From IMG/VR virus record IMGVR_UViG_3300017991_000352, positions 1 to 27,266 of that record: a stretch of DNA of 27,266 nt. One strand, 5' to 3'. The translations under genes and the position numbers were made by a program. Origin of the DNA: a virus. Numbering within the stretch: position 1 is the first letter of the stretch; each line of letters begins with the position of its first letter. This document shows, piece after piece, positions 1 to 13,165 of this stretch. The notes below the pieces were generated by a model. The model searched no databases and was not told where the DNA came from. It saw nothing but the letters and a program-made list of their open reading frames with translations.

Positions 1-279
1 GTGGCTTTCCCGGATGAGGGGGATATACTCGACGACACGGACGCCGAGACGCGGACCGTTCGCGTCGGCCTTTTCGGGGACGTGTATGCCTACATGCGGA
101 AAGACGGTAAGGTGTATGAGTTTCGAGACGACGAGGAAGGCTACAGGGATTTCGAATTCGCCGTCGGGGACTACTTGGTGATTTCTCTTCGCCGCATTCC
201 CGATAGATTTCTCACCGATCGAGTCCGAGAGCTGAAAAAGCACAGTCGCGACTTCTTTTTGCTCGCAAGGGAGAGATGA
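1..279 (+). CDS. Small acidic protein of unknown function, 5' end possibly missing
   Basis: This 92-residue frame opens with a GTG at the first base of the window, so the true start may lie upstream and the ribosome binding site cannot be judged. The N-terminus is acidic (DEGDILDDTDAE), followed by a likely beta-rich middle (RVGLFGDVYAYMRKDGKVYEF) and a basic C-terminal helix (about residues 68-92). I do not recognise a family. Its TGA overlaps the ATG of the kinase gene, so the two are probably translationally coupled and may work together. In T4-like gene orders the portal gene would be expected somewhere upstream, but nothing here resembles a portal. Confidence 0.6.
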   Translation: MAFPDEGDILDDTDAETRTVRVGLFGDVYAYMRKDGKVYEFRDDEEGYRDFEFAVGDYLVISLRRIPDRFLTDRVRELKKHSRDFFLLARER

Positions 280-1331
280 TGCAGCCTACGCAGCAACCGG
301 CTTTAGACGAGTTTCTGTCGACGGTAGACGCGATTGCTGGAGGAGACCACTCCCCGGACACGCTGCAAAAGATGTGCGTTCTGTGTTCGCCTGACTATGA
401 GCCCACGCGCGAAGACAAGGTTCGATTGGGTGGCGAAGCGATTGTCCTAAAAGTATCAAATACTGTGCTTGATCGCGCAGAAGTATTAAAAATACCCCGA
501 CGCGCACTGGTCGAGAATAAGAGGCTTCTGGCACGGTATTTTCGGGGAATGCAACTGCAAAGCCGTGTCCACCGCTACGTTCGCGCCGGAGTCCCAGAAG
601 TGTACGCAGCACGATATAATGCCCCGTTTGTCAGCATGGAGTGGATTCGCGGGCTGGCACTACTCCGCTTCCTCGAGCAAGCGGGCCAGCGAGAGTCCGC
701 CCGGTTTTTTGTTAGCATCTTGGACTTGGTAGCCAGCCTGCATGATCGAATGGTGATTCATCGGGATCTTACACCCTCTAATATACTCGTGGGGGTGGAT
801 CCTGTAACGGAAGCTCTTTGCCCTTACCTTTTGGATTTCGGCCTCGCAAAGCGCGTGCAAGGCGAATCAACGCTTACGGGAATTGGAGCAAAGCTGGGGA
901 CGAACGGCTGGGCGAGTCCGGACCAGCTCGATGATGCCGCGCGTGCTGATTTCCTGGACGACGTGTACACGGCGGGGCGTTTGCTCTACGTGATGGCTAC
1001 TTATGCCACGACAAAAGCCTGTCCGCGGAAAGATCGCGATTATGACGAGCGGCTTTTACCTGGGGAGTGGCTTCCAATTTTTCAGGCGGCGACCGCTCCA
1101 CGAGAGGCTCGCTACCAATCTATCAGGGAGCTTCGGGCTGCCGTCGCTCGTGTCGTGGGGATCGAGGACGTAAGTATTGTTAGGGTGCCCGACCCCATTT
1201 CGGTTTTCTCAGAAGATCTACGGTCGACCAGAAAGATTCGGAAAGTTTCGCCCCCTCCCGAGAGTACGGAAGGGGATGACCTCGTAGACCTTTTCGTAAA
1301 AGCGGTAAGGTCTGCAATTTATAACTCGTAG
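276..1331 (+). CDS. Hanks-type serine/threonine protein kinase
   Basis: A 351-residue protein with a full eukaryotic-like kinase fold signature. Seen: a degenerate glycine loop near residues 51-56 (LGGEAI), the ATP-anchoring lysine K72 in VLKIPRR, the catalytic loop H162-R163-D164 with N169 (HRDLTPSN), the magnesium-binding D187-F188-G189, an APE-like segment at about 213-216 (ASPD), and the subdomain IX aspartate D229 in DVYTAG. These residues predict an active Ser/Thr kinase, presumably cytoplasmic or virion-associated. There is no membrane segment or PASTA repeat. About 80 C-terminal residues follow the core and are unrecognised. Two ATGs are possible (276 and 279); AAGGGAG at 267-273 is better spaced for the second. 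The gene overlaps its upstream neighbour by 4 bases and heads a run of small virion-type genes. Its sampled GC is lower than the head genes, which suggests acquisition. The substrate is unknown. Confidence 0.9.
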   Translation: MMQPTQQPALDEFLSTVDAIAGGDHSPDTLQKMCVLCSPDYEPTREDKVRLGGEAIVLKVSNTVLDRAEVLKIPRRALVENKRLLARYFRGMQLQSRVHRYVRAGVPEVYAARYNAPFVSMEWIRGLALLRFLEQAGQRESARFFVSILDLVASLHDRMVIHRDLTPSNILVGVDPVTEALCPYLLDFGLAKRVQGESTLTGIGAKLGTNGWASPDQLDDAARADFLDDVYTAGRLLYVMATYATTKACPRKDRDYDERLLPGEWLPIFQAATAPREARYQSIRELRAAVARVVGIEDVSIVRVPDPISVFSEDLRSTRKIRKVSPPPESTEGDDLVDLFVKAVRSAIYNS

Positions 1332-1343
1332 GAGGGACGGCAA

Positions 1344-1952
1344 GTGACGATAGGAAATTACGGTTTGGAATTTACTTTCACCAATGAAACGGACGGGATC
1401 GTGTCCGCCAATCAGCTCGGGATCCCCGGCCTGGCCCCGGGAGAGACGGTAACGATTTATGAAAACAAGTTGCGCCCGGGGCATTTCGGCATGGTCGATG
1501 GGGGGAAACTCTCGGTGTCTCCGGAGCTTCCCCCCGACCTCGTGACGCGCGCGGCGTCGCTGAACTGGCAGGACTCGGAGTGGAGGAAACTCCTCGAGAT
1601 GCTGGCCGCCAGCAAAGACAGCCTGGCTTTCGCTTCGGACGCACCGGCCACCGCCGACGTCGACGCCGAAGTCGAGGTGGAGCTTTTCCTGCTCGACGCG
1701 GCGGGAGTACCGATCCTGCTCGACTCCGAAGAGGAAGTGGACATCAGCGTGGACACCGGGCTGATCGTGGACGTGTCCGGTTACGTGTCCGGAGACTTGA
1801 ACGACGTCGGGCCGATTCGCGCGAAGTGCGCGTCCGGGCTTATCACGATCACCGTGACCGACGACGCGGCCGAAGCGCAAACGATTTCGCTCGCAAACCC
1901 GTCGACCGCCGGACTGACCGTCACCGACACGCACGTCGTAACTTACAGTTAA
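1344..1952 (+). CDS. Putative minor virion protein with beta-sandwich C-terminus
   Basis: A 202-residue protein starting at GTG 1344, supported by TAGGAGGG at 1329-1336. The N-terminal half has short beta-type segments (YGLEFTFTNET, GETVTIYENKL) and a helix with SEWRKLLEMLA near residues 76-87. The C-terminal part, from about residue 110, is acidic and strand-rich (VEVELFLLDAAG, DISVDTGLIVDVSG, LITITVTD) and looks like an Ig-like or bacterial adhesion-type sandwich. No signal peptide or membrane segment is visible. I do not recognise a specific family. Position between the kinase and the head genes suggests a head accessory or decoration protein, which is inference only. It ends with tandem stops TAA TAG. 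Confidence 0.65.
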   Translation: MTIGNYGLEFTFTNETDGIVSANQLGIPGLAPGETVTIYENKLRPGHFGMVDGGKLSVSPELPPDLVTRAASLNWQDSEWRKLLEMLAASKDSLAFASDAPATADVDAEVEVELFLLDAAGVPILLDSEEEVDISVDTGLIVDVSGYVSGDLNDVGPIRAKCASGLITITVTDDAAEAQTISLANPSTAGLTVTDTHVVTYS

Positions 1953-1965
1953 TAGGGAGCGCGGG

Positions 1966-2316
1966 ATGATGACGATTTCCGTCAAGGGGGCCGTGCAGGT
2001 AAAAAACGAGCAGGGGCGCGTCGAATACTCGGAGCTGCTGGCGAAGGATTTTTCTGTTGCTGAACACTATATTCGGCATTTGAAAATAGCCGCCGGCTCC
2101 ATAGACGCCAACCTGGACTTGGGCGGGGTGAGCGACATCACTTTCGCCCTGATCCTCTCTGATCTGCCCGTGGCCCCGAAAATAAACGGAGCCCTGTCGG
2201 CTCTCCCGGCCGGAAACATGTTTGTTTTCAGCGGATCGACGGGAAGCTACATCACAGACATTAAGCTGTCGAACGCGGCCGGCACGGACGCTAACTTGCG
2301 CGTTATTTTGGGGTAA
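1966..2316 (+). CDS. Small unrecognised protein, probable virion component
   Basis: A 116-residue protein with two consecutive ATG codons at 1966 and 1969; GGGAG at 1955-1959 is spaced for either. The sequence alternates strands and turns (ISVKGAVQVKNEQGRVEYSE, SITFALILSDLP-like stretches, a Gly/Ser-rich loop FSGSTGSYITDIKLSN). It ends LRVILG with no charged tail. No catalytic motif, signal peptide or membrane segment is seen. Its beta-rich composition and place in the run of small genes ahead of the prohead protease fit a minor structural role, but I cannot assign a family. Confidence 0.6.
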   Translation: MMTISVKGAVQVKNEQGRVEYSELLAKDFSVAEHYIRHLKIAAGSIDANLDLGGVSDITFALILSDLPVAPKINGALSALPAGNMFVFSGSTGSYITDIKLSNAAGTDANLRVILG

Positions 2317-3528: not shown

Positions 3529-3541
3529 CGGCGGCGGCGTG

Positions 3542-5356
3542 ATGACTACGACAACGCCGAAATGGTTTCTCTACGACTCGGTTCTACTGGATTACTCCAT
3601 TACCGAGAGCGCTGAAGGGCTCTTGATTTTGCGCGGGAAGGTGCAGCACGCCGACATAAAAAACGACAACAACCGGGTGTATCGTTACTCCGTGCTGGAC
3701 AAGGTTTTGAAAGCGCAAAAGGTAAGAGACCGGCTGCGTCGGCGTCTCATGGTCGGGGAGCTGGAGCATCCTGAAGACGGCATCACGAAATTCTATCGAG
3801 TTTCGCATCTGGTGACGGATCTCCGTTGGGGAGAGGGAAAGGTCGTCTTGGGCTCCTTCGAGATTTTCGATGACGTTCCGCATGGAATAATCGTGGCGCG
3901 CCTGATCCGTCGGGGGGTTCCTGTGGGAGCCTCCACGCGCGGGAAGGGGACGTCTCACGAGCAGGATGACGTCGAATTCGTGGACGACAACTATGATCTG
4001 GAGACGGTCGACATTGTCTACAACCCTTCGACTCCGGGAGCGTACCCCAAGCCCGTGAAAGTTGCCATGTCCGGGGAACTTCCGACCTGGGAGCGAGATG
4101 AGGAGAAGACATCCAGAAAACTCGTGAGCCTGGCCGATGATGCGGGTCGGGTTCGCGTGGCCGCTTCACGCGGAAAAGCTAGCGATGAGGAGATACGGCG
4201 TTGTGAGAGGGACCTCTCGGGGGTGTCCGGACATGGCGACGCGCTCCTCGAGAAGTTTTGTGAGTTAATCAACAGGGACTTGAAGGAGGCCAGAAAAATG
4301 GCGAAAAGCAAGTTGACCGTCCCCGTCCAAGCGGTGAGCCAGATGATAGAGGCGATCCGGTCAGACGAGGAGGAATACAAACCCCCCACCGAGGAGCGAA
4401 AGAAGCGGCGTAAGACCGAGCAGGAGGGGGACGAGTACGAAGAGCGGAAAAAGCGCCGGCGCAAATCGGAGCAGGCCGAATACGAAGACGAGTACGAAGA
4501 GCAAGATGACGAAGAAGGCTTGGACGACGAGGAGTACGAAGAGCGCAAGCGGCGTCGGAAAATGGAGGCGAAGAAGAAACGCCAGCGCAAATCGGAGCAG
4601 GCCGAATACGAAGACGAGTATGAGGAGCAAGATGACGAAGAAGGCTTGGACGACGAGGACGAGTACGAGGAGCAGGACGAGCCCGAAGAGGAGTACGAAG
4701 AGCAGGACGACGAAGAAGAAAAGCCCGCTCCTCCTCCCCCCGTCGAAAAGAAAAGCTTTCTCTCTCGCAAGGAGAGGAAATGCGAATCCGCCGGCGTGCT
4801 GAGAAAGGCTCTCGTCCGCGAGCGCAAGCTCAAAAACGCGCTCGTCGAGCGCGCGCGTCAGCTTCGCGCGGCAAACTCCGTGTTGGCGTCGAAGCTCGAC
4901 AGCTCTGTGGACTTGATCGCAAAAGTGGTCGAGCGGGTGGAGGCGGAGAAAAAGCGCCGTATCCTCTCGCGGGCGACGGCCGAAAACCCGGAGATGGGAA
5001 ATCTGCTCCCGGTGCTGGAGCGGTGCAGCGCACGCGAACTCGAAGAGGCTGTCCGTTTGGTGCAGGAAAGCAGGGAAACCAAAATGCGGGAAGAGGAAAG
5101 CCGTCGTCAGGAGGAAGCAGCTCGACGTACCCCGCCTTCGCGCAGAAGGTACACACCGCCGCCGGCCAGAACGCGAGAACTGATGGTCGAATCTCAGGAT
5201 CTCCCCGCCGAGGACCTTCCGAAAAAGCAAGTGAAGGAAAACAAACTGTCTTTGGGAAGGATTCTCGAGGAGAGCCGCCACGGGGCGGATAGCGACTATT
5301 CGCGAATGGCCGATAACCTGATCGACGGCGGGCACCTTCCGCCCGGATGGATGTAG
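3542..5356 (+). CDS. Prohead protease (T4 gp21-like serine protease) fused to acidic scaffold-like region
   Basis: A 604-residue protein from ATG 3542 (a GTG at 3539 is also possible). Residues 1-180 match the T4 gp21/phage prohead serine protease pattern: DIKNDNNRVY near 38-47, the candidate catalytic histidine H76 in GELEHP, the candidate serine S131 in VGASTRGKG, and VDIVYNPSTPGA near 156-167. Known members cut scaffold and capsid propeptides inside the prohead. Residues about 275-400 are extremely acidic, with duplicated EYEDEYEEQDDEEGLDDE units alternating with basic RKKRRR clusters. The C-terminal 200 residues are charged and helical, as expected of a scaffold or core protein. The fused layout resembles lambda C with its nested Nu3. 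A separate scaffold gene was not found between this gene and the capsid gene, supporting a dual role. Confidence 0.85.
   Translation: MTTTTPKWFLYDSVLLDYSITESAEGLLILRGKVQHADIKNDNNRVYRYSVLDKVLKAQKVRDRLRRRLMVGELEHPEDGITKFYRVSHLVTDLRWGEGKVVLGSFEIFDDVPHGIIVARLIRRGVPVGASTRGKGTSHEQDDVEFVDDNYDLETVDIVYNPSTPGAYPKPVKVAMSGELPTWERDEEKTSRKLVSLADDAGRVRVAASRGKASDEEIRRCERDLSGVSGHGDALLEKFCELINRDLKEARKMAKSKLTVPVQAVSQMIEAIRSDEEEYKPPTEERKKRRKTEQEGDEYEERKKRRRKSEQAEYEDEYEEQDDEEGLDDEEYEERKRRRKMEAKKKRQRKSEQAEYEDEYEEQDDEEGLDDEDEYEEQDEPEEEYEEQDDEEEKPAPPPPVEKKSFLSRKERKCESAGVLRKALVRERKLKNALVERARQLRAANSVLASKLDSSVDLIAKVVERVEAEKKRRILSRATAENPEMGNLLPVLERCSARELEEAVRLVQESRETKMREEESRRQEEAARRTPPSRRRYTPPPARTRELMVESQDLPAEDLPKKQVKENKLSLGRILEESRHGADSDYSRMADNLIDGGHLPPGWM
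4298..5356 (+). CDS. Putative nested scaffold protein from an internal in-frame start
   Basis: Inside the protease gene, AAGGAGG (4283-4289) stands 8 bases before an in-frame ATG at 4298. Initiation there would give a 352-residue protein (MAKSKLTVPVQAVSQ at its N-terminus) lacking the protease domain but holding the acidic repeats and the helical C-terminus. This matches the logic of lambda Nu3, a scaffold made from an internal start within the C protease gene. Such a product would be needed in far more copies than the protease. The match in strength and spacing is unlikely to be chance in a coding region, but expression is inferred and not shown. Confidence 0.55.
   Translation: MAKSKLTVPVQAVSQMIEAIRSDEEEYKPPTEERKKRRKTEQEGDEYEERKKRRRKSEQAEYEDEYEEQDDEEGLDDEEYEERKRRRKMEAKKKRQRKSEQAEYEDEYEEQDDEEGLDDEDEYEEQDEPEEEYEEQDDEEEKPAPPPPVEKKSFLSRKERKCESAGVLRKALVRERKLKNALVERARQLRAANSVLASKLDSSVDLIAKVVERVEAEKKRRILSRATAENPEMGNLLPVLERCSARELEEAVRLVQESRETKMREEESRRQEEAARRTPPSRRRYTPPPARTRELMVESQDLPAEDLPKKQVKENKLSLGRILEESRHGADSDYSRMADNLIDGGHLPPGWM
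4451..4657 (+). repeat. In-frame direct repeat (81 bp, 126-bp period) encoding acidic units
   Basis: Copies at 4451-4531 and 4577-4657 differ at about four positions, two of them third-base changes in a Tyr-Glu codon pair. The offset of 126 bases equals 42 codons, so the reading frame is kept. The repeat encodes a basic-then-acidic unit (KSEQAEYEDEYEEQDDEE and onward). Near identity at DNA level points to a recent duplication, and the region is a likely site of length variation. Confidence 0.85.
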
Positions 5357-5394
5357 ACGACGCGCTACAAAGCGCAAAACGAAAGGAGAAAAGC

Positions 5395-6831
5395 ATGTTG
5401 ATGCCACAGATAGAGGGGGTCCCCCCCATTGCCAACCTGGCGGAAAATCTCCAGATGGGCGGCCAGACAATCCTGGAACGCACCCAGGAGAAGGGAGCCA
5501 AGCTCGCCGCCGAGGATTGGAGTCACCTTTGCCGCCGCCTCCCGAAAAACATGCGGTGGCGAACCGCCATCCTGCTGGAAAACACGAAGTCTTACTTCAA
5601 GAACTTCAACGAGACCGTGCGCCAGCAAGCAATCGGGAACTTCGACAAGTTCGCCTTCCCGCTGATCCGGGCCATATACCCGAACCTGGTGGCCCAGGAA
5701 CTCGTTTCCGTACAGCCCATGACCGGGCCCATCTCCCTGATTTTCTATCTCGACGCTTTGTACGGCTCGAACAAGGGGAGCGTCCAGGCGGGACAGGCCG
5801 CGTTCGATGCGGTCTCCGGCCCCAACGAAAACCCGTCTTACAGCTCCGAAGACGTCGAGCTGGAGCCGCTCGGCGCCGGCGACGACGCGGAGACGAACTT
5901 CACGGGAAACGTAGGATACACCCCCATATACCAGGGGACTGTGCAGGTGGCCGCCGGCGATGTCGTTGGTTGGGACGATGGGGACGGCAACATAACCGGA
6001 ACCGGGATTGCGGCGGGAAGCATCGACTACGACACCGGAGCCTACGACATCACTTTCTCTGTGGCCCCGGTGGGCGGGACGATCATCACGGCCTCGTACC
6101 GTTTCGACATGGAAGGCTCGGAACTGGTGCCGCAAATGGACATCGGGATGGTCTCCACCCCTGTCGTTGCCCAGCACCACAAGCTGAGAATCCGCTGGTC
6201 GATCGAGGCTCAGGCTTCGGCCAGATCCCTCCACGGCCTGGACGCGCAAAGTGAACTCATGGCATTCACGGCGGAGGAACTCAAATTCGAAATCGACCGC
6301 CGTGTCATAAGGGACTTGTACAACATCGCCCTCGCCGGACACGTTTTCTGGCAGATCACCCAGCCGGCCGGCGTGAGCTTTACCGAACACAAGCTGTCTT
6401 ACATCGACGCTTTGATCGAGCTGGGCAACTTGATTTTCCGTGCAACTCGGCGTGGGAACATGAATTTCATCGTGACGTCCGTGGAGGTGGCAAATATCAT
6501 CGAAAGCCTCCCCACTTTCGTCGCCGAGCCGAACGCTTTTTCGGTCCAGAGGACGGCGGGCGTGGTCAAGGTCGGCGTGCTCAACAACAGGTGGACCGTC
6601 TACAAAGACCCCTTCCTCGGTAACGGACAGCCGAACCCGAGAGTGTTTTTCGGCGGCTACAAAGGCGGGAGCTGGATGGACGCCGGCTATGTCTTCGCTC
6701 CGTATCTCCCCCTGTACACGACTCCTACGATCTTTTTGGATGACTTCTTGGGGAGGAAAGGTTTGGGCATCGCCTACGGAAAAAAGACGATCAACCCCAG
6801 ATTTTACGGCACCGGCGAAGTCACCGCGTGA
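5395..6831 (+). CDS. Major capsid protein (T4 gp23-like)
   Basis: A 478-residue protein from ATG 5395, chosen because AAAGGAG (5382-5388) precedes it; an earlier in-frame ATG at 5347 has no such site. The gp23 family signature is clear: FPLIRAIYPNLVAQELVSVQ near residue 83 and QPMTGPISLIFYLDALYGS just after, then the helical core ELMAFTAEELKFEIDRRVI and the C-terminal YPTIFL-type and GKKTINPRFYG segments. It forms the icosahedral HK97-fold shell. Residues about 167-240 form a strand-rich, Gly/Asp-rich insertion (GDGNITGTGIAAGSIDYDTG) that probably protrudes from the capsid surface. The first 30 residues hold possible protease sites (LAE/N at 17, ILE/R at 28). No gp24-type vertex paralogue is seen. 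A hairpin follows the stop. Confidence 0.93.
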   Translation: MLMPQIEGVPPIANLAENLQMGGQTILERTQEKGAKLAAEDWSHLCRRLPKNMRWRTAILLENTKSYFKNFNETVRQQAIGNFDKFAFPLIRAIYPNLVAQELVSVQPMTGPISLIFYLDALYGSNKGSVQAGQAAFDAVSGPNENPSYSSEDVELEPLGAGDDAETNFTGNVGYTPIYQGTVQVAAGDVVGWDDGDGNITGTGIAAGSIDYDTGAYDITFSVAPVGGTIITASYRFDMEGSELVPQMDIGMVSTPVVAQHHKLRIRWSIEAQASARSLHGLDAQSELMAFTAEELKFEIDRRVIRDLYNIALAGHVFWQITQPAGVSFTEHKLSYIDALIELGNLIFRATRRGNMNFIVTSVEVANIIESLPTFVAEPNAFSVQRTAGVVKVGVLNNRWTVYKDPFLGNGQPNPRVFFGGYKGGSWMDAGYVFAPYLPLYTTPTIFLDDFLGRKGLGIAYGKKTINPRFYGTGEVTA

Positions 6832-6866: not shown

Positions 6867-6915
6867 ACGCCCATACACTAATTAGCCTGGAAAGCAGAAG
6901 AAAAGGAGAAGAGAA

Positions 6916-7398
6916 ATGACGCAGCAAACCCAACAGAAATTCATCAATAACCGACCGTACAGGGTGGTAGGCCTCAACGGAGCCGGCGGGCGGAAAGAAG
7001 TGGCCCCCGGGGCCGTGGTAGGCCCAGAGTTCGCAAGCCTCGTCAACCAGCGAAAAGGCCTCGTACCTTACGACGGGCCGCGCCCTCTCGGCCAGATGCA
7101 AAAAAGCGGAAAGGGAGCGCCCAAGCGCCCCAAATTCGCTCAGATGCTCGGGGCGAACGACGACGCGAAAGAGGCGCGCGACCGCGCCCAGAAAGCCAAG
7201 GCCATAGCCGGAGGTGAAGCCTATATGGATCAGAGTTATGAAGAGTGGTGCGACGTCGCCGCGCAAGGAAAACTCGAATCGTTTTCGCGTTCCCAACTTT
7301 TAGGACTCGGGCGTTTTGTGGGGATCGACTTTGCGGAGGCGACCGCGAAAAAAGACATCATAGGCACGCTCAGAACCAAGCTCGCTCCCGGAAAGTAG
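6916..7398 (+). CDS. Unrecognised protein with C-terminal SAP/HeH-like helical motif
   Basis: A 160-residue protein from ATG 6916 with a good site in AAAAGGAGAAGAG just upstream. The N-terminal part (residues 1-55) contains YRVVGLNGAGGRKEVAPGAVV, a short beta segment. The middle is basic and Ala-rich, probably flexible. The C-terminus (about 118-160, ESFSRSQLLGLGRFVGIDF then KKDIIGTLRTKL) has the spacing of SAP/HeH/Rho-N-like helix-extended-loop-helix domains, which often bind nucleic acid. Located directly after the capsid gene and before neck genes, it could be a head completion or DNA-interacting capsid protein. The domain call is tentative. Confidence 0.65.
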   Translation: MTQQTQQKFINNRPYRVVGLNGAGGRKEVAPGAVVGPEFASLVNQRKGLVPYDGPRPLGQMQKSGKGAPKRPKFAQMLGANDDAKEARDRAQKAKAIAGGEAYMDQSYEEWCDVAAQGKLESFSRSQLLGLGRFVGIDFAEATAKKDIIGTLRTKLAPGK

Positions 7399-7405
7399 GT
7401 AGACG

Positions 7406-8461
7406 ATGGCAGAAGTAGTGCAGCGCTCCTCCTCTTTCAGCCCGCAAGGAAACTCGGCGCCAGACCTGCTGGTAATTGAAACCAGTTTTCAGCGGGGCGG
7501 CCGGGCTGTCGCCGTGAGCGACCTGGTTTTGCGTGTGTTTTCGGATGGAGTGCAAATACTCCCAGACATTACGGCAAGCACGGAACCAGCAATCGAGCGT
7601 AAAGTGTCCGGGTGTGGAACGTACTACTTCGTCCGCCTCAATCCCGATGGTTTGGGGGAATCACCGCTGGAAGCCCGATGGTATGCCACCTACGACGGAA
7701 AGCCCTGGTGCCCCTCCCCCCAGATCACCATGGTCGCCACACAGTCGACCATGGATGGCGTCTTGCTATCGTCAGAGCTTCGCGACTGGATTTTGCGTAA
7801 GTTGGGCTGGCCGAAGCAGGGGGTGGAGCTGGACGAATCACAGATTTGCGATTCTATCGCAGACGCGCTTGCCGAATACAATCAATACGTGCCGAGGTGG
7901 AAATATGGCGAGATCCGTCTCGTCACCGGGCGGAAAGCATACACTATAACCGAATTCGGCCGCGGGGTTTATGATGTCCAATTTCGTCGGAAAGAAGGAA
8001 CTCCGATCATCTCAGACCCTCTATTTGGTCGTCACTACCCCAGGTTTTCGCAGTTGGCTTTCGATGACTTCGTTTTGTCACAATCGCATTACGGGACGGT
8101 CCTTCGTGTCACTGGACAAGAGCCAATTTGGCGTTGGGATCCGGGGACCCCGACAAAAATTTTTATTGACACGGGTGAGTGGGATCGCTCCTTCTACGAG
8201 GTCACATATGCTTACGGGGTAGACCACCGCCTGGGAGACATCACGCCGGCGCACCAGCAAACTTTGAAACGTCTTGCCCTGGCGCGCGCCAAGATCGTTC
8301 TTGGAGAGATCCGCGAAAAATTCGGGGACTCTGTAATCACTCCAGGCGGGAACGTGCAGCTCAACGGCGGGAAGCTGAAGGATGAGGGGTTTCGGGAGGC
8401 GGAGGCCTTACAGGAGATACTGCAAGGCCTCGCCATCCCAATGTGGCCGATCTATGGCTAA
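7406..8461 (+). CDS. Putative neck/head completion protein
   Basis: A 351-residue protein from ATG 7406. Residues 1-110 are strand-rich (LLVIETSFQRGGRAVAV, CGTYYFVRLNPDG, LEARWYATYDGKPW) and look like a beta-sandwich. From about residue 118 a helical section begins (SELRDWILRKLGWP, then ELDESQICDSIADALAEYNQY), a pattern recurring in connector and neck proteins of T4-like myoviruses, where a helix ending in LG-P precedes an acidic 'D-x-x-I-x-D-A-L' helix. Further strands and a C-terminal helix (LKRLALARAKIVLGEIREKFG) follow. Placed after the capsid gene and before tail completion genes, where T4-type orders have gp13/gp14. Exact orthology to gp13 is not established. Confidence 0.6.
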   Translation: MAEVVQRSSSFSPQGNSAPDLLVIETSFQRGGRAVAVSDLVLRVFSDGVQILPDITASTEPAIERKVSGCGTYYFVRLNPDGLGESPLEARWYATYDGKPWCPSPQITMVATQSTMDGVLLSSELRDWILRKLGWPKQGVELDESQICDSIADALAEYNQYVPRWKYGEIRLVTGRKAYTITEFGRGVYDVQFRRKEGTPIISDPLFGRHYPRFSQLAFDDFVLSQSHYGTVLRVTGQEPIWRWDPGTPTKIFIDTGEWDRSFYEVTYAYGVDHRLGDITPAHQQTLKRLALARAKIVLGEIREKFGDSVITPGGNVQLNGGKLKDEGFREAEALQEILQGLAIPMWPIYG

Positions 8462-9007
8462 ATGTGGATAAGTGGGGGAAAAGCCGTGTACGACGCGGAG
8501 CTACCTGTAGACTTTACAGGCAATTACGACATAGAAGTATATCGCGCGCTCCATCTGGAAAACTGGAAGCGTGATGTATCTTTTATGTGGTGGCGCCGCT
8601 TGATCCGTGATCCCCGCCTTGTCTACGATGCTGGCTACAGGTACGACGCACAATACAAGTACGACGAATACGATTCGGTAGACCCCCTCTACAACGAGGC
8701 AATGGAAAAACGCTACCACCCACCTGTTCGCATCAGGATTTTCTTTCAGGAGCAGGGGAACCAGGCGGACCTGTTCAAGCTTGGGATTATCGAGAGCCGG
8801 CCGGCAATCTGCAAGTTTTCGGTTTTCGCGCTGGAAGAGGCGGGCTTCTCCTCGGACGCTGTAGCTCCAGGGGATTTGATTCTGTACGAGCAGCACGAGT
8901 ACGAGATTTCGACTGTAATTGGGGATGTCGAGGCTCAGTGGTTGTCAAGCTCTATCCCATTCATCCTGCTTTGCAAACTCAACGTGGTTGACAGGATTTC
9001 AGCGTAA
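8462..9007 (+). CDS. Putative neck protein with YD-repeat motif
   Basis: A 181-residue frame whose ATG directly follows the upstream stop. A GTG at 8486, preceded by GTGGGGGAAAA, is an alternative start. The N-terminal half is aromatic and charged (DVSFMWWRRLIRDP) and carries a periodic Tyr-Asp motif, YDAGYRYDAQYKYDEYD, at residues 55-71. The C-terminal half is strand-rich (VRIRIFFQEQG, ICKFSVFALEEAG, GDLILYEQHEYEIS) and resembles small OB/SH3-like neck proteins; the GDLI-Y-x-x-H-x-Y-E-I pattern is common in T4 gp14-like or head-tail joining proteins, though I rely on memory here. The next ATG overlaps its stop by one base, so translation is coupled. Confidence 0.55.
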   Translation: MWISGGKAVYDAELPVDFTGNYDIEVYRALHLENWKRDVSFMWWRRLIRDPRLVYDAGYRYDAQYKYDEYDSVDPLYNEAMEKRYHPPVRIRIFFQEQGNQADLFKLGIIESRPAICKFSVFALEEAGFSSDAVAPGDLILYEQHEYEISTVIGDVEAQWLSSSIPFILLCKLNVVDRISA

Positions 9008-9642
9008 TGGCGAAAAAACTGAAAATGGGAGTCTCCTTTCGGGGGGACACGCACAAGATGAAGCGCTACGTCGCGAAAGTCGCTCGGGAAGCCGGAATGA
9101 AGGCCGCCCGGGAATTTCTCCTCGAGCTGGGAGGAAGCTTTCTCTTCCGGCTGCAAGAGGCGATTTTGCGTCAGGACCTCGATCTTGCAGCTCTCAGCAA
9201 GCCTTACGTGGAGTTCAAAAAGCGGGCCGACCTCGATCCTAGAACACTGATAGCTACAGGGGAATACGTCGAGTCAATCGAGATACAGGAACGGATGCGC
9301 GGTGAAAACTACATGGTTGTGGTCACTGTGCCTGACCGAGAGCATGAGACGTCAGGAGTGAATCTGCAGCTACTCGCGCGCGTGCTGGAGTACGGGAGCG
9401 TCAAAAACAACATACCTCCAAGGCCTCACTGGCGCGCAATCAAGGAGATGTTTTTGCTGCAAGAGGATATGATCTCTCGACGCGCCGAGGAGAAGATCGC
9501 GCGCGAAGTTCGTGAGGCGATAAAACGCGGGCGCGTCGAGGCGGCTTATCGCAAAGCCAGCGAGCAGTGGAAGGAGTTGAATCCAGCGGAGGAAGCGCGT
9601 CTGCACGGTGTGGCGGAGTCTTTTCGGAGTGGTCGTATATGA
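9007..9642 (+). CDS. HK97 gp10-like/virion morphogenesis tail completion protein
   Basis: A 211-residue basic protein. Its most telling segment is LARVLEYGSVKNNIPPRPHW near residues 119-138, the 'A-x-x-x-E-x-G-(x)n-I-P-x-R-P' signature of HK97 gp10-like and Mu gpG-like proteins that act at the head-tail interface or tail terminus. Before it are helices (KRYVAKVAREAGMKAAREF) and LIATGEYVESIEIQ, also typical of this family ('l-x-x-T-G-x-l-x-x-S-i'). The C-terminal 70 residues are a long charged helix extending past the usual family length. Start and stop overlap neighbours by one and four bases, indicating a tightly coupled operon with the neck genes. Confidence 0.7.
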   Translation: MAKKLKMGVSFRGDTHKMKRYVAKVAREAGMKAAREFLLELGGSFLFRLQEAILRQDLDLAALSKPYVEFKKRADLDPRTLIATGEYVESIEIQERMRGENYMVVVTVPDREHETSGVNLQLLARVLEYGSVKNNIPPRPHWRAIKEMFLLQEDMISRRAEEKIAREVREAIKRGRVEAAYRKASEQWKELNPAEEARLHGVAESFRSGRI

Positions 9643-10703: not shown

Positions 10704-12572
10704 ATGGCCGAATACATTTCCCCGGGGGTCTACTCGCGCGAGATAGATCTCTCTCAGTACGCGCCGGCGCTCGCCACCGCAATTTTCGCTGTAGTCGGAA
10801 CGGCCCAGAAAGGCCCAGTGAACGACCCTACTCCGGTTACAAGCGCTCTGGAATTGCAAAACAAGTTCGGCGTGGGGGCGCTCACGCATTACGCCGTGTA
10901 CGCGATGGAGCAGTACTTGCGAAATGGCCGTCAAGGGCTCTTTGTGCGCGTGACCGACGGGACGGAGTCGGCAGCCTCGAAAGCCGTCGCTGGGGCGGCG
11001 CAAATCGCGTTCTTCAAGGGGTTCAAAAACCTGTCCGGCGGAATCGACTTGAGCGTGCGCTATCGGATTCGCGTCACCATCGACGGGAGCAGTCACGACA
11101 TCAACCTGCGCGACAGCTACACCGGGGACCTCACCGACGTCCCGATCGAGCAGATAATCACGGCGATAAACAATACGGTTGCTGGCGCCGCGGCGAAAGA
11201 CAATCTCAATGCCTACCCAATAATCCGAGGTACGGTGGCGGGGGAGGCGTCGGGAGAGGTGACAATAGAGGCCTACGCCGACCCCCTGACCGACGCCGGC
11301 CAGCATGTTTTCGGCGTGCCGTCCATCCCCTACACCGTCACTGGGATTGACGCCGAAGCGGCGGCTCTCACCGTGTACGCGGAGAGTCCGGGGACTTTCG
11401 CCAACGGCTTGCAAATCCGGATAGAGAACGGGACTACGACGGGGACCTTCAAGCTTTCGGTCTGGGACGTCCAAAGCAATCTGCTCGAGACCTACGACAA
11501 CCTGACCAAAGCGAACGTGGAAAAGACGATAAACGGTGTCAGTGCTTACATCGTGGTGGACGACGAAGGGAACGACAGCCTTCCGGACCCGGCGACTTAC
11601 TTGGCGACCCCCCCGACTCCCGTCTCCTACTCTCTCGCCGGAGGGGCCGACGGAATTTCTACCATTTCAGACGCCGACTACATCGGGACCGTCACGGGCG
11701 GCGTGAAGACCGGGCTGAAAACGCTGAACAATCCGGAAATCATCGACGTCAACATCGTTGCCACTCCTGGGGTTTCCAGCGGCCCGGTCGTCCTGGAGCT
11801 GCTCGAGCTTTGCCGCTCCCGCGGCGATTGTCTCGCGATCGTCGACCCCCCGATGGGGCTCGACTACGACGACGTGATAGATTGGCACAACGGGAACGGG
11901 GCCTACGACGGCTTGCATCCCACGTTCAACTCGTCCTACGGGGCCACCTATTGGCCGTGGGTCGAGCAGTACGACCCGAACGCCGAAGAGCGGGTTTTCA
12001 CGCCACCGTCCGGCTGGGTGGCCGCTCAGATGGCCTTCACCGACTACCTGAACGATCCCTGGTATGCTCCGGCCGGCCTCACGCGGGGGCGGCTTAACAC
12101 TGCCCTTCGGCTCGAAAAGCCTTCTCCCGATCTGGGACAGAGAGACTTTTTGTATGGCAATGGAAACGCCGTCAACCCCATCGTCGACTTCCCGCGTGAT
12201 GGGATCTTGATTTACGGCCAGCGCACCCTGCAGCGGACGGCGAGCGCGCTCGATCGAGTAAACGTCCGAAGGATGTTGCTCTTCGCGCGAAAGCTCATCG
12301 CTACCGTATCGCAGATACTCGTTTTCGAGCCGAATGACTCCACTTTGTGGCGTCGCGCGACGAATCTTATCAATCCGATTTTGAACAGAATCAAAGCCGG
12401 CCGTGGAATAGAAGAGTTTCAGGTGAGGATCGACTCCAGCACCAATCCGCCCGATGTCCGGAACAGAAACGAGATGCACGGGAAACTCTTTATCATCCCG
12501 ACAAAGGCCGCGGAAAAAATCGTACTCGATTTTGTGATTTTGCCCTCGGGGGCCGAATTCTCCGAAGGTTAA
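10704..12572 (+). CDS. Contractile tail sheath protein (T4 gp18-like)
   Basis: A 622-residue protein from ATG 10704, with GGAGG upstream. The N-terminus is diagnostic: ISPGVYSREIDLSQYAP followed by ATAIFAVVGTAQKGP, the signature of phage and tailocin sheaths. Residues about 100-320 are an insertion with strand-rich repeats (IRVTIDGSSHDINLRD, LTVYAESPGTFANGLQ), forming outer domains. The conserved core resumes at about residue 340 (LNNPEIIDVNIVATPG) and the C-terminal domain includes RRMLLFARKLIATVSQ and FEPNDSTLWRRATNL. Sheath subunits stack around the tube and contract on infection. Length is within the usual 450-700 range. It is followed after 11 bases by the tube gene. Confidence 0.95.
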   Translation: MAEYISPGVYSREIDLSQYAPALATAIFAVVGTAQKGPVNDPTPVTSALELQNKFGVGALTHYAVYAMEQYLRNGRQGLFVRVTDGTESAASKAVAGAAQIAFFKGFKNLSGGIDLSVRYRIRVTIDGSSHDINLRDSYTGDLTDVPIEQIITAINNTVAGAAAKDNLNAYPIIRGTVAGEASGEVTIEAYADPLTDAGQHVFGVPSIPYTVTGIDAEAAALTVYAESPGTFANGLQIRIENGTTTGTFKLSVWDVQSNLLETYDNLTKANVEKTINGVSAYIVVDDEGNDSLPDPATYLATPPTPVSYSLAGGADGISTISDADYIGTVTGGVKTGLKTLNNPEIIDVNIVATPGVSSGPVVLELLELCRSRGDCLAIVDPPMGLDYDDVIDWHNGNGAYDGLHPTFNSSYGATYWPWVEQYDPNAEERVFTPPSGWVAAQMAFTDYLNDPWYAPAGLTRGRLNTALRLEKPSPDLGQRDFLYGNGNAVNPIVDFPRDGILIYGQRTLQRTASALDRVNVRRMLLFARKLIATVSQILVFEPNDSTLWRRATNLINPILNRIKAGRGIEEFQVRIDSSTNPPDVRNRNEMHGKLFIIPTKAAEKIVLDFVILPSGAEFSEG

Positions 12573-12583
12573 GGAGGTAAATT

Positions 12584-13165
12584 ATGCCTATAACTCCAAT
12601 GACGAGCAATCATCTCGCCTCTCAGCTCGGAACCTTCGAGCCTCAGCGGCGAAACCACTATCAAATCCGATTTTTCTTGGGCAACTTCCTGGATGAGGAA
12701 ATGCTCACACTCGGAATCGTCGGAGGCTTCATGCCGTCCGAGGGCAATGAGGAAATTCAGATCCCGCACAAGAACGAAGACGTTTGGGTGGCCGGACGGC
12801 GAACGCTCGAAAGCGGAACGATCCGCGTTCGCGATTACGTCGACCGCGAAACGCTGGCGGCCATCCTCCGTTGGCGCCAGCAAGTCTACAATCCTTTGAC
12901 GGGCGGCGTGGGCTTCGCAAGCCTCTACAAAAAATCCGGGGAAATTCTGCTCACGGCTCCGGATGGAATCAGCAACGAACGCATTTGGCAACTTATCGGG
13001 TGCTGGCCGACGCAGGCGAACCCCGGGGAGCTGGCCGACGACCAGAACGATGTCGTCGTTGCCGACGTCACGATCCGATTCGACAAAGCCATTCCGCTTT
13101 TTGCAATCTCGGCGGAATCGAGTTTGGCCGCTTCGATTCCTTCGGTAGCCGGCGGCCTGGTCTAA
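12584..13165 (+). CDS. Tail tube protein (T4 gp19-like)
   Basis: A 193-residue protein from ATG 12584 with AAGGAGGT, one of the strongest sites in the window, as expected for a highly expressed subunit. Family features of gp19-like tubes: an early strand NHYQIRFFLGN, GFMPSEGNEEIQIPHKN, then ILRWRQQVYNPLTGG and a C-terminal strand VVVADVTIRFDKAIPLF. These form a beta-barrel hexamer. The order sheath-tube-chaperone-tape measure is the standard one. No duplicated second tube gene is present. Confidence 0.93.
   Translation: MPITPMTSNHLASQLGTFEPQRRNHYQIRFFLGNFLDEEMLTLGIVGGFMPSEGNEEIQIPHKNEDVWVAGRRTLESGTIRVRDYVDRETLAAILRWRQQVYNPLTGGVGFASLYKKSGEILLTAPDGISNERIWQLIGCWPTQANPGELADDQNDVVVADVTIRFDKAIPLFAISAESSLAASIPSVAGGLV

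Follow-up and report, generated by a model that had tools for sequence, protein, structure and literature searches.

Why does a T4-type myovirus carry a protein kinase gene among the genes of its virion, and on which proteins might the enzyme act? The question is raised by a window of 27,266 nucleotides of viral DNA (the whole stretch that was analysed), which matches positions 39893–67158 of the 95,867-bp IMG/VR contig IMGVR_UViG_3300018080_000139 (G001) at 100% identity. A sequence-only reading of the window had placed the kinase inside a structural operon, overlapping the gene before it and running directly into those after it, and the gene map agrees. The kinase gene (276..1331, plus strand; contig 40168–41223) shares an ATGA (276–279) with the upstream ORF and is followed, 12 nt past its stop, by a gene for a 202-aa protein without assigned function (1344..1952, plus strand), which adjoins the kinase in a sister phage as well (G009; 42% identity). 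On the same strand come a 116-aa ORF of the same operon without family match (1966..2316), a gp21-type prohead protease (3539..5356; Peptidase_S77, 3.6e-14) with a long acidic, partly repeated region, a gp23-type major capsid protein (5347..6831; 1e-55), the tail sheath (10704..12572; 6.3e-12) and a gp19-like tail tube protein (12584..13165; 2.5e-5, below the Pfam cut-off). The portal is encoded beyond the window (contig 77293–78981). Within the protease gene, an acidic repeat of ∼100 nt (window 4447–4673) has copies with 91% identity, and a Papain-family (C1) peptidase (contig 73241–74110; 52% in G009) lies a few kb before the portal. A 'terminase' label for the ORF preceding the portal was discarded, as it reflected position only and no family match was found.

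Upstream, the window edge cuts a gene for an FHA–GAF-like protein, so that positions 1..279 (plus strand) hold its 3′ end, the final 92 of 506 codons (contig 38651–40171). It is preceded by genes for a membrane protein (contig 38200–38643) and a coiled-coil protein (contig 37801–38178) and, farther upstream in the same direction, by a patatin-like phospholipase (contig 36897–37829; 7e-27) and two giant ORFs that lie side by side (2422 and 2579 aa; contig 19962–34957). The second giant ORF has weak HEAT-repeat similarity, and ORFs at contig positions 35017 and 35183 have a C-terminal motif in common. Promoter-like sites near the kinase gene do not rise above chance. Terminator-like sites do (9 found versus 4.1 expected, SD 2.1), and those on the plus strand near the kinase fall inside genes. 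The kinase gene has the lowest GC3 of the 24 genes compared (0.56; mean 0.68, SD 0.05), and the values for the FHA–GAF, coiled-coil and membrane protein genes are ordinary. From gene position only, we infer that the kinase is made late.

The ORF (351 aa, ATG start) is a genuine protein kinase gene, as had been claimed. Pkinase (PF00069) matches it at 4.5e-15, far beyond chance, and at 56.2 bits against a curated cut-off of 31.7, the best stretch in HMMER being 118–244 only, mainly the C-lobe, with a divergent N-lobe; phrog_2361 ('serine-threonine kinase') matches at 1.3e-22. The AF2 model built from a 19-row alignment has a bilobal kinase fold (pLDDT 83, pTM 0.80), its top Foldseek match is PknB (9.6e-12) and the nearest solved sequence is Staphylococcus aureus Stk1 (2.2e-13). 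The fold is PknB-like. N-terminal helices (6–37) precede the kinase domain (∼49–294), and a linker of low model confidence (302–336) leads to a last helix (333–350). No transmembrane (TM) segment is predicted in the protein, and Pfam finds no PASTA, CSD or FHA domain on it.

The statement that all catalytic motifs are present holds in part. K72 (the VAIK lysine), HRD 162–164, N169 and DFG 187–189 were found; the alphaC glutamate is replaced by glycine and the glycine loop is degenerate. As to the lysine, two family-only alignments put K59, not K72, opposite the lysine of the relatives, and K72 is favoured by the 19-row alignment and by the model strand 67–74. The glycine loop reads LGGEAIV, in which GxGxxG is not recovered. 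The alphaC Glu column of the 19-row alignment falls on G91, and no Glu occurs in 81–107, between E80 and E108, the predicted alphaC helix being 82–101. The catalytic loop (HRDLTPSN) has Thr where the other 18 of the 19 rows have the Lys of HRDxKPxN, and the APE motif reads SPD. Phosphotransfer activity is plausible but not assured, because of the degenerate loop, the Gly in the alphaC Glu column and the Thr in place of Lys.

Conserved linkage of the kinase with the gp21 and gp23 genes, which the sequence-only reading had put forward for checking, is seen in the sister phage and not in the other gp23 loci listed. G009 (kinase locus L032) resembles the window phage in gp23 (57%), sheath (62%), portal (52%) and gp21 (37%) and has its kinase in the same place, beside a gene homologous to that for the 202-aa protein. 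When the kinase, gp23 and FHA–GAF proteins of the window phage served as single-sequence queries, its own contig was the only match. Among the best 80 gp23 loci listed, which did not include G009 or G005, none of the 79 others shows the kinase with E under 0.1, 42 of them having 5 kb or more of upstream sequence; one (L124) gave a marginal match (0.11). All 15 gp23 relatives with 38–50% gp23 identity and 5.9–10 kb of upstream sequence lack the kinase and have other genes upstream of gp21. Conversely, gp23 was sought in 50 other kinase contigs and found in three (G009, G005 and G008), in G008 (L031) ∼28 kb from the kinase. Divergence is mixed. Between G001 and G009, the kinase (25% identity) has diverged far more than gp23, sheath and portal, and the tape measure stands at 26%; between G001 and G005, a more distant myovirus-like contig, the kinase (28%) has diverged no more than those proteins (gp23 24%, sheath 30%, portal 23%). 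In the Thornevirus phages SP-15 and LIS04, ribonucleotide reductase genes lie between portal and protease, so late operons of the group do carry cargo there. The 595-kb uncultured phage LR756511.1 has a capsid match of gp23 type as well as a Ser/Thr kinase that is not linked to it (115101 and 523536). Linkage to gp21 and gp23 is not general; what is conserved is linkage to membrane and coiled-coil or helical proteins upstream, joined by the FHA–GAF protein in two of five phages.

These five phages were brought together by the kinase itself. A kinase-alignment scan of IMG/VR gave 79 loci, the window's own included, from the best 80 of 116 relatives, and L026 and L205 were reached via the tree and a further scan. 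In a 60-row tree, the kinases of G001, G009 (L032), G005 (L028), L026 and L205 form one clade against 55 others (support 99/95), on long branches that meet there and may mislead the tree. An 80-row tree, built without eleven near-copies or fragments and without ORFs lacking HRD, groups the window kinase with L026, L032 and L028 (SH-aLRT 91 and 84, not starred). For the 60-row tree, ten more rows were removed because their branches were long or their sequences short (L088, L076, L084, L037, L079, L092, L067, L100, L098 and L099), together with further near-copies and the four hand-added kinases of the 80-row tree; L205 is present in the 60-row tree only. The clade has a signature in the 19-row alignment, whose 14 non-member rows were hand-picked from the 79 loci: E54, a Glu after two loop positions, occurs in five of five members against 0/14 others, and Gln at position 95 in four of five against 0/14. 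The alphaC Glu column (91) holds Gly in four members and, in L028, Ser, as in four KKP-type kinases; the alphaC pattern is found in three of 87 sequences, near-copies included (window, L026 and L032). Four of the five retain the VAIK Lys, L028 having Asn, and all five retain the HRD Asp, the catalytic Asn and the DFG Asp, with the variants DFS in L026 and L205 and DWA in L032. L004 encodes a DNA polymerase A whose N-terminal part is a uracil-DNA glycosylase domain (6901–9564) and a protein with a GrpE match (1395–2387). Kinase matches came from 26 records of the 'phages' collection. Of the eight that were read, five have PASTA-like repeats, judged by eye, and one more is a shortened version of the same kind; these look like bacterial contigs deposited as phage and were not counted as phage evidence. 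MT835604, MT835527, MT836719 and OR846588 are records named as phage, with kinases bearing PASTA-like repeats by eye, and look bacterial.

All five clade members have the gene order coiled-coil or helical protein, membrane protein, optional FHA–GAF protein, kinase. The kinase of the window is thus a member of a small cassette shared with four other, quite different phages, two of them myovirus-like (G009 and G005) and two with siphovirus-type tail genes (L026 and L205), in which it lies among tail genes; in G005, the FHA–GAF and kinase genes lie ∼3 to 5 kb downstream of the portal. The FHA–GAF gene stands between the membrane protein and kinase genes in G001 and G005, the kinase gene overlaps its upstream partner in three of the five cassettes, and a lipoprotein-like gene directly follows the kinase in L026 and L205 (37% alike). 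With low-complexity and composition corrections off, the coiled-coil proteins are similar between L026 and L205 (9e-20), G001 and L205 (3e-6) and L032 and L205 (1e-5); the G005 helical protein is placed in the set by its position. The membrane proteins share a position without clear sequence likeness (best E 0.005), the window phage's having one predicted TM segment over threshold plus a weaker hydrophobic stretch, and those of the other four phages two predicted segments each. Upstream neighbours were scored at 74 kinase loci (near-copies counted), and a neighbour with exactly two predicted TM segments stands at L026 and L032 only, both clade members. The L205 membrane protein matches a holin PHROG weakly (E 0.043); none of the genes near the cassette was identified as a lysis gene, and no endolysin match was found among the proteins scanned, a part of the contig's ORFs. 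That the cassette recurs suggests that it serves in signalling at a late stage of infection.

The FHA–GAF-like protein (506 aa) has an FHA-like region at 25–81, a GAF-like region at 170–288 and 200 C-terminal residues without domain match. The two similarities (GAF E 0.0009 for the excised domain, FHA E 0.006) are below the Pfam cut-offs, and FHA domains normally have GR where this one has GT; the FHA assignment is supported by the G005 homologue, just upstream of its kinase, which passes the FHA cut-off (2.2e-6). An FHA domain was found in two of 49 kinase contigs, both clade members and both just upstream of the kinase, in a test that is not fully sensitive, since it missed FHA in the KKP-type contigs tested, whose PfkB reportedly carries one. 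A PP2C or SpoIIE reading of the C-terminal residues, made by eye, was rejected: neither family matched, and hhalign against six KKP-type PP2Cs gave 0.1–0.2% probability. Genome scans with the lipoprotein-like and FHA–GAF proteins found no relative.

Several known systems invite comparison. Bacterial PASTA kinases (S. aureus Stk1, StkP and PknB) supply the nearest solved sequences and folds, but continue beyond the kinase domain with a TM segment and PASTA repeats, neither of which is present in the 351-aa phage protein. Planktothrix phage PaV-LD, like the window phage, has an annotated Ser/Thr kinase (ORF037R) next to a signalling gene; it differs in that the kinase is paired with a phosphatase (ORF036R) and lies on the strand opposite to the nearest head gene (a decoration protein ∼2 kb away). 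The PaV-LD kinase matches that of L032 weakly (2e-6) and is not among the window kinase matches at E 0.01. The kinases of T7 and 933W, which we take to be gp0.7 and Stk, are likened to the window kinase by description only, as phage-encoded protein kinases. Few phage protein kinases have been characterised, and Benler et al. 2021 (PMC8008677) name two, that of T7, acting early in host takeover, and that of 933W, expressed in lysogens. The same paper describes a HipA-like kinase gene of Gratiaviridae, of unknown function, between portal and major capsid protein genes; it has a glycosyltransferase and an AAA ATPase upstream, whereas the window kinase is PF00069/PknB-like and HipA is not among the families listed for it. 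KKP, as presented by Guo et al. 2024 (PMC11341870), resembles the cassette in its phage-borne Hanks-type Ser/Thr kinases, its involvement of FHA and its spread over diverse phages, and its occurrence in Mu-like and other prophages is a precedent for a kinase among structural genes. KKP has a PP2C and two kinases with CSD (PfkA) and FHA (PfkB) domains, whereas the cassette has one kinase, membrane and coiled-coil partners and, in two of five phages, a separate FHA–GAF protein; the window's contig has one kinase match only, and no PP2C was found among the kinase neighbours scanned (Pfam and hhalign). The features tested as diagnostic of KKP, PASTA and HipA-like kinases are missing from the window kinase. 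A KKP-like PP2C–kinase–kinase triplet was also observed in L185 (5073–12100; IMGVR_UViG_3300006920_007197), between genes that are Mu-like by eye.

On these grounds we lean, at somewhat below an even chance, to a late, membrane-docked and host-facing phospho-signalling cassette rather than a head-protein kinase. The kinase would be its catalytic member, a soluble Hanks-type enzyme that the membrane protein anchors to the inner membrane of the phage-producing cell, and the FHA–GAF protein, where present, may sense or relay. Late in infection, the enzyme would phosphorylate a protein of the envelope or of the host, and the timing of lysis or the reaction to superinfection may be set in this way, a control step that we infer; the virion genes would be its transcriptional neighbours, not its substrates. 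The cassette reading is supported by the gene order in five of five phages, the single kinase clade with its own signature and the location among or near virion genes. It is weakened by membrane proteins without clear sequence likeness, the missing FHA–GAF gene in three of five phages and the long branches, and also by a kinase that diverges from G005 like virion proteins and a tape measure that is likewise at 26% versus G009.

Assembly was the first idea of the sequence-only reading, in which the kinase phosphorylates head or tail proteins to guide it. Proximity speaks for this (two phages have the kinase a few kb from gp21 and gp23, two have it among tail genes and one has it close to the portal), as does conservation versus G005 equal to that of virion proteins; yet with the kinase missing from the 79 other gp23 loci among the best 80 listed, and with a G001–G009 divergence far above that of gp23, sheath and portal, the idea is very improbable. 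The kinase is linked to a membrane protein instead, and this linkage, with that to coiled-coil or helical proteins, points to a role in signalling at the membrane rather than in phosphorylating head proteins. The head genes around the kinase would suit an enzyme packaged with the head, ejected and acting on host proteins at the next infection in an Alt-like manner, and the giant ORFs and patatin-like phospholipase upstream, in the same direction, are plausible injected proteins. Injection of late-linked polyvalent proteins, some with kinase domains, is predicted by Iyer et al. 2017 (PMC5512222), and a possible phage kinase is listed for P-SS2 virions in PMC2784084, at an average of 0.5 peptide, the same as terminase and hardly above background. 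We consider injection a serious rival but distinctly doubtful, since the linked membrane protein and, in two phages, the lipoprotein-like gene are unlike soluble cargo, and in two phages the cassette is among tail, not head, genes.

Cargo for immunity or defence, either a phosphorylation system akin to KKP and directed against other phages or a counter to host kinase-based defence, is a further serious rival but unlikely, even though the prophage system KKP, with its kinases, FHA and PP2C, is itself a defence (PMC11341870). Triplets KKP-like by motif among the kinase matches, the patchy distribution and low kinase GC3, and the Ser that L028 shares with four KKP-type kinases would fit; against this, the cassette has one kinase, no phosphatase detected beside it and no CSD domain, its clade excludes the KKP-type kinases in the 60-row tree, the PADLOC matches are unspecific, with the same models matching each of the five kinases scanned, and no promoter beyond chance lies near the kinase gene. 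A degenerate kinase serving as an ATP-binding scaffold or pseudokinase is decidedly unlikely. Such a role might be read from the absent alphaC Glu, the degenerate loop and the catalytic-loop Thr of the window kinase, from the Asn for the VAIK Lys in L028 and from DFS in L026 and L205 and DWA in L032; the VAIK Lys is nevertheless kept in four of the five, the HRD Asp, catalytic Asn and DFG Asp in all, and four KKP-type kinases also lack the alphaC Glu, KKP kinases being reported to act on host targets (PMC11341870).

A fuller form of the preferred cassette reading is possible though doubtful: coiled-coil protein, two-TM protein and kinase, with or without the FHA–GAF protein, may form a dedicated late inner-membrane complex, common to myo- and siphoviruses, which works through protein phosphorylation to fix the moment of lysis or to detect superinfection, as a phage counterpart of a split receptor kinase. 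Phage kinases, also near structural genes, are already known, and this cassette appears to be new within a partial literature coverage, mostly outside subscription papers, in which no description of a phage coiled-coil/TM/kinase cassette was found. If the cassette does span tailed-phage types, it would offer a compact system in which to test whether phages use protein phosphorylation at late stages of infection, and its linkage would redirect the search for the substrate from the capsid to the envelope.
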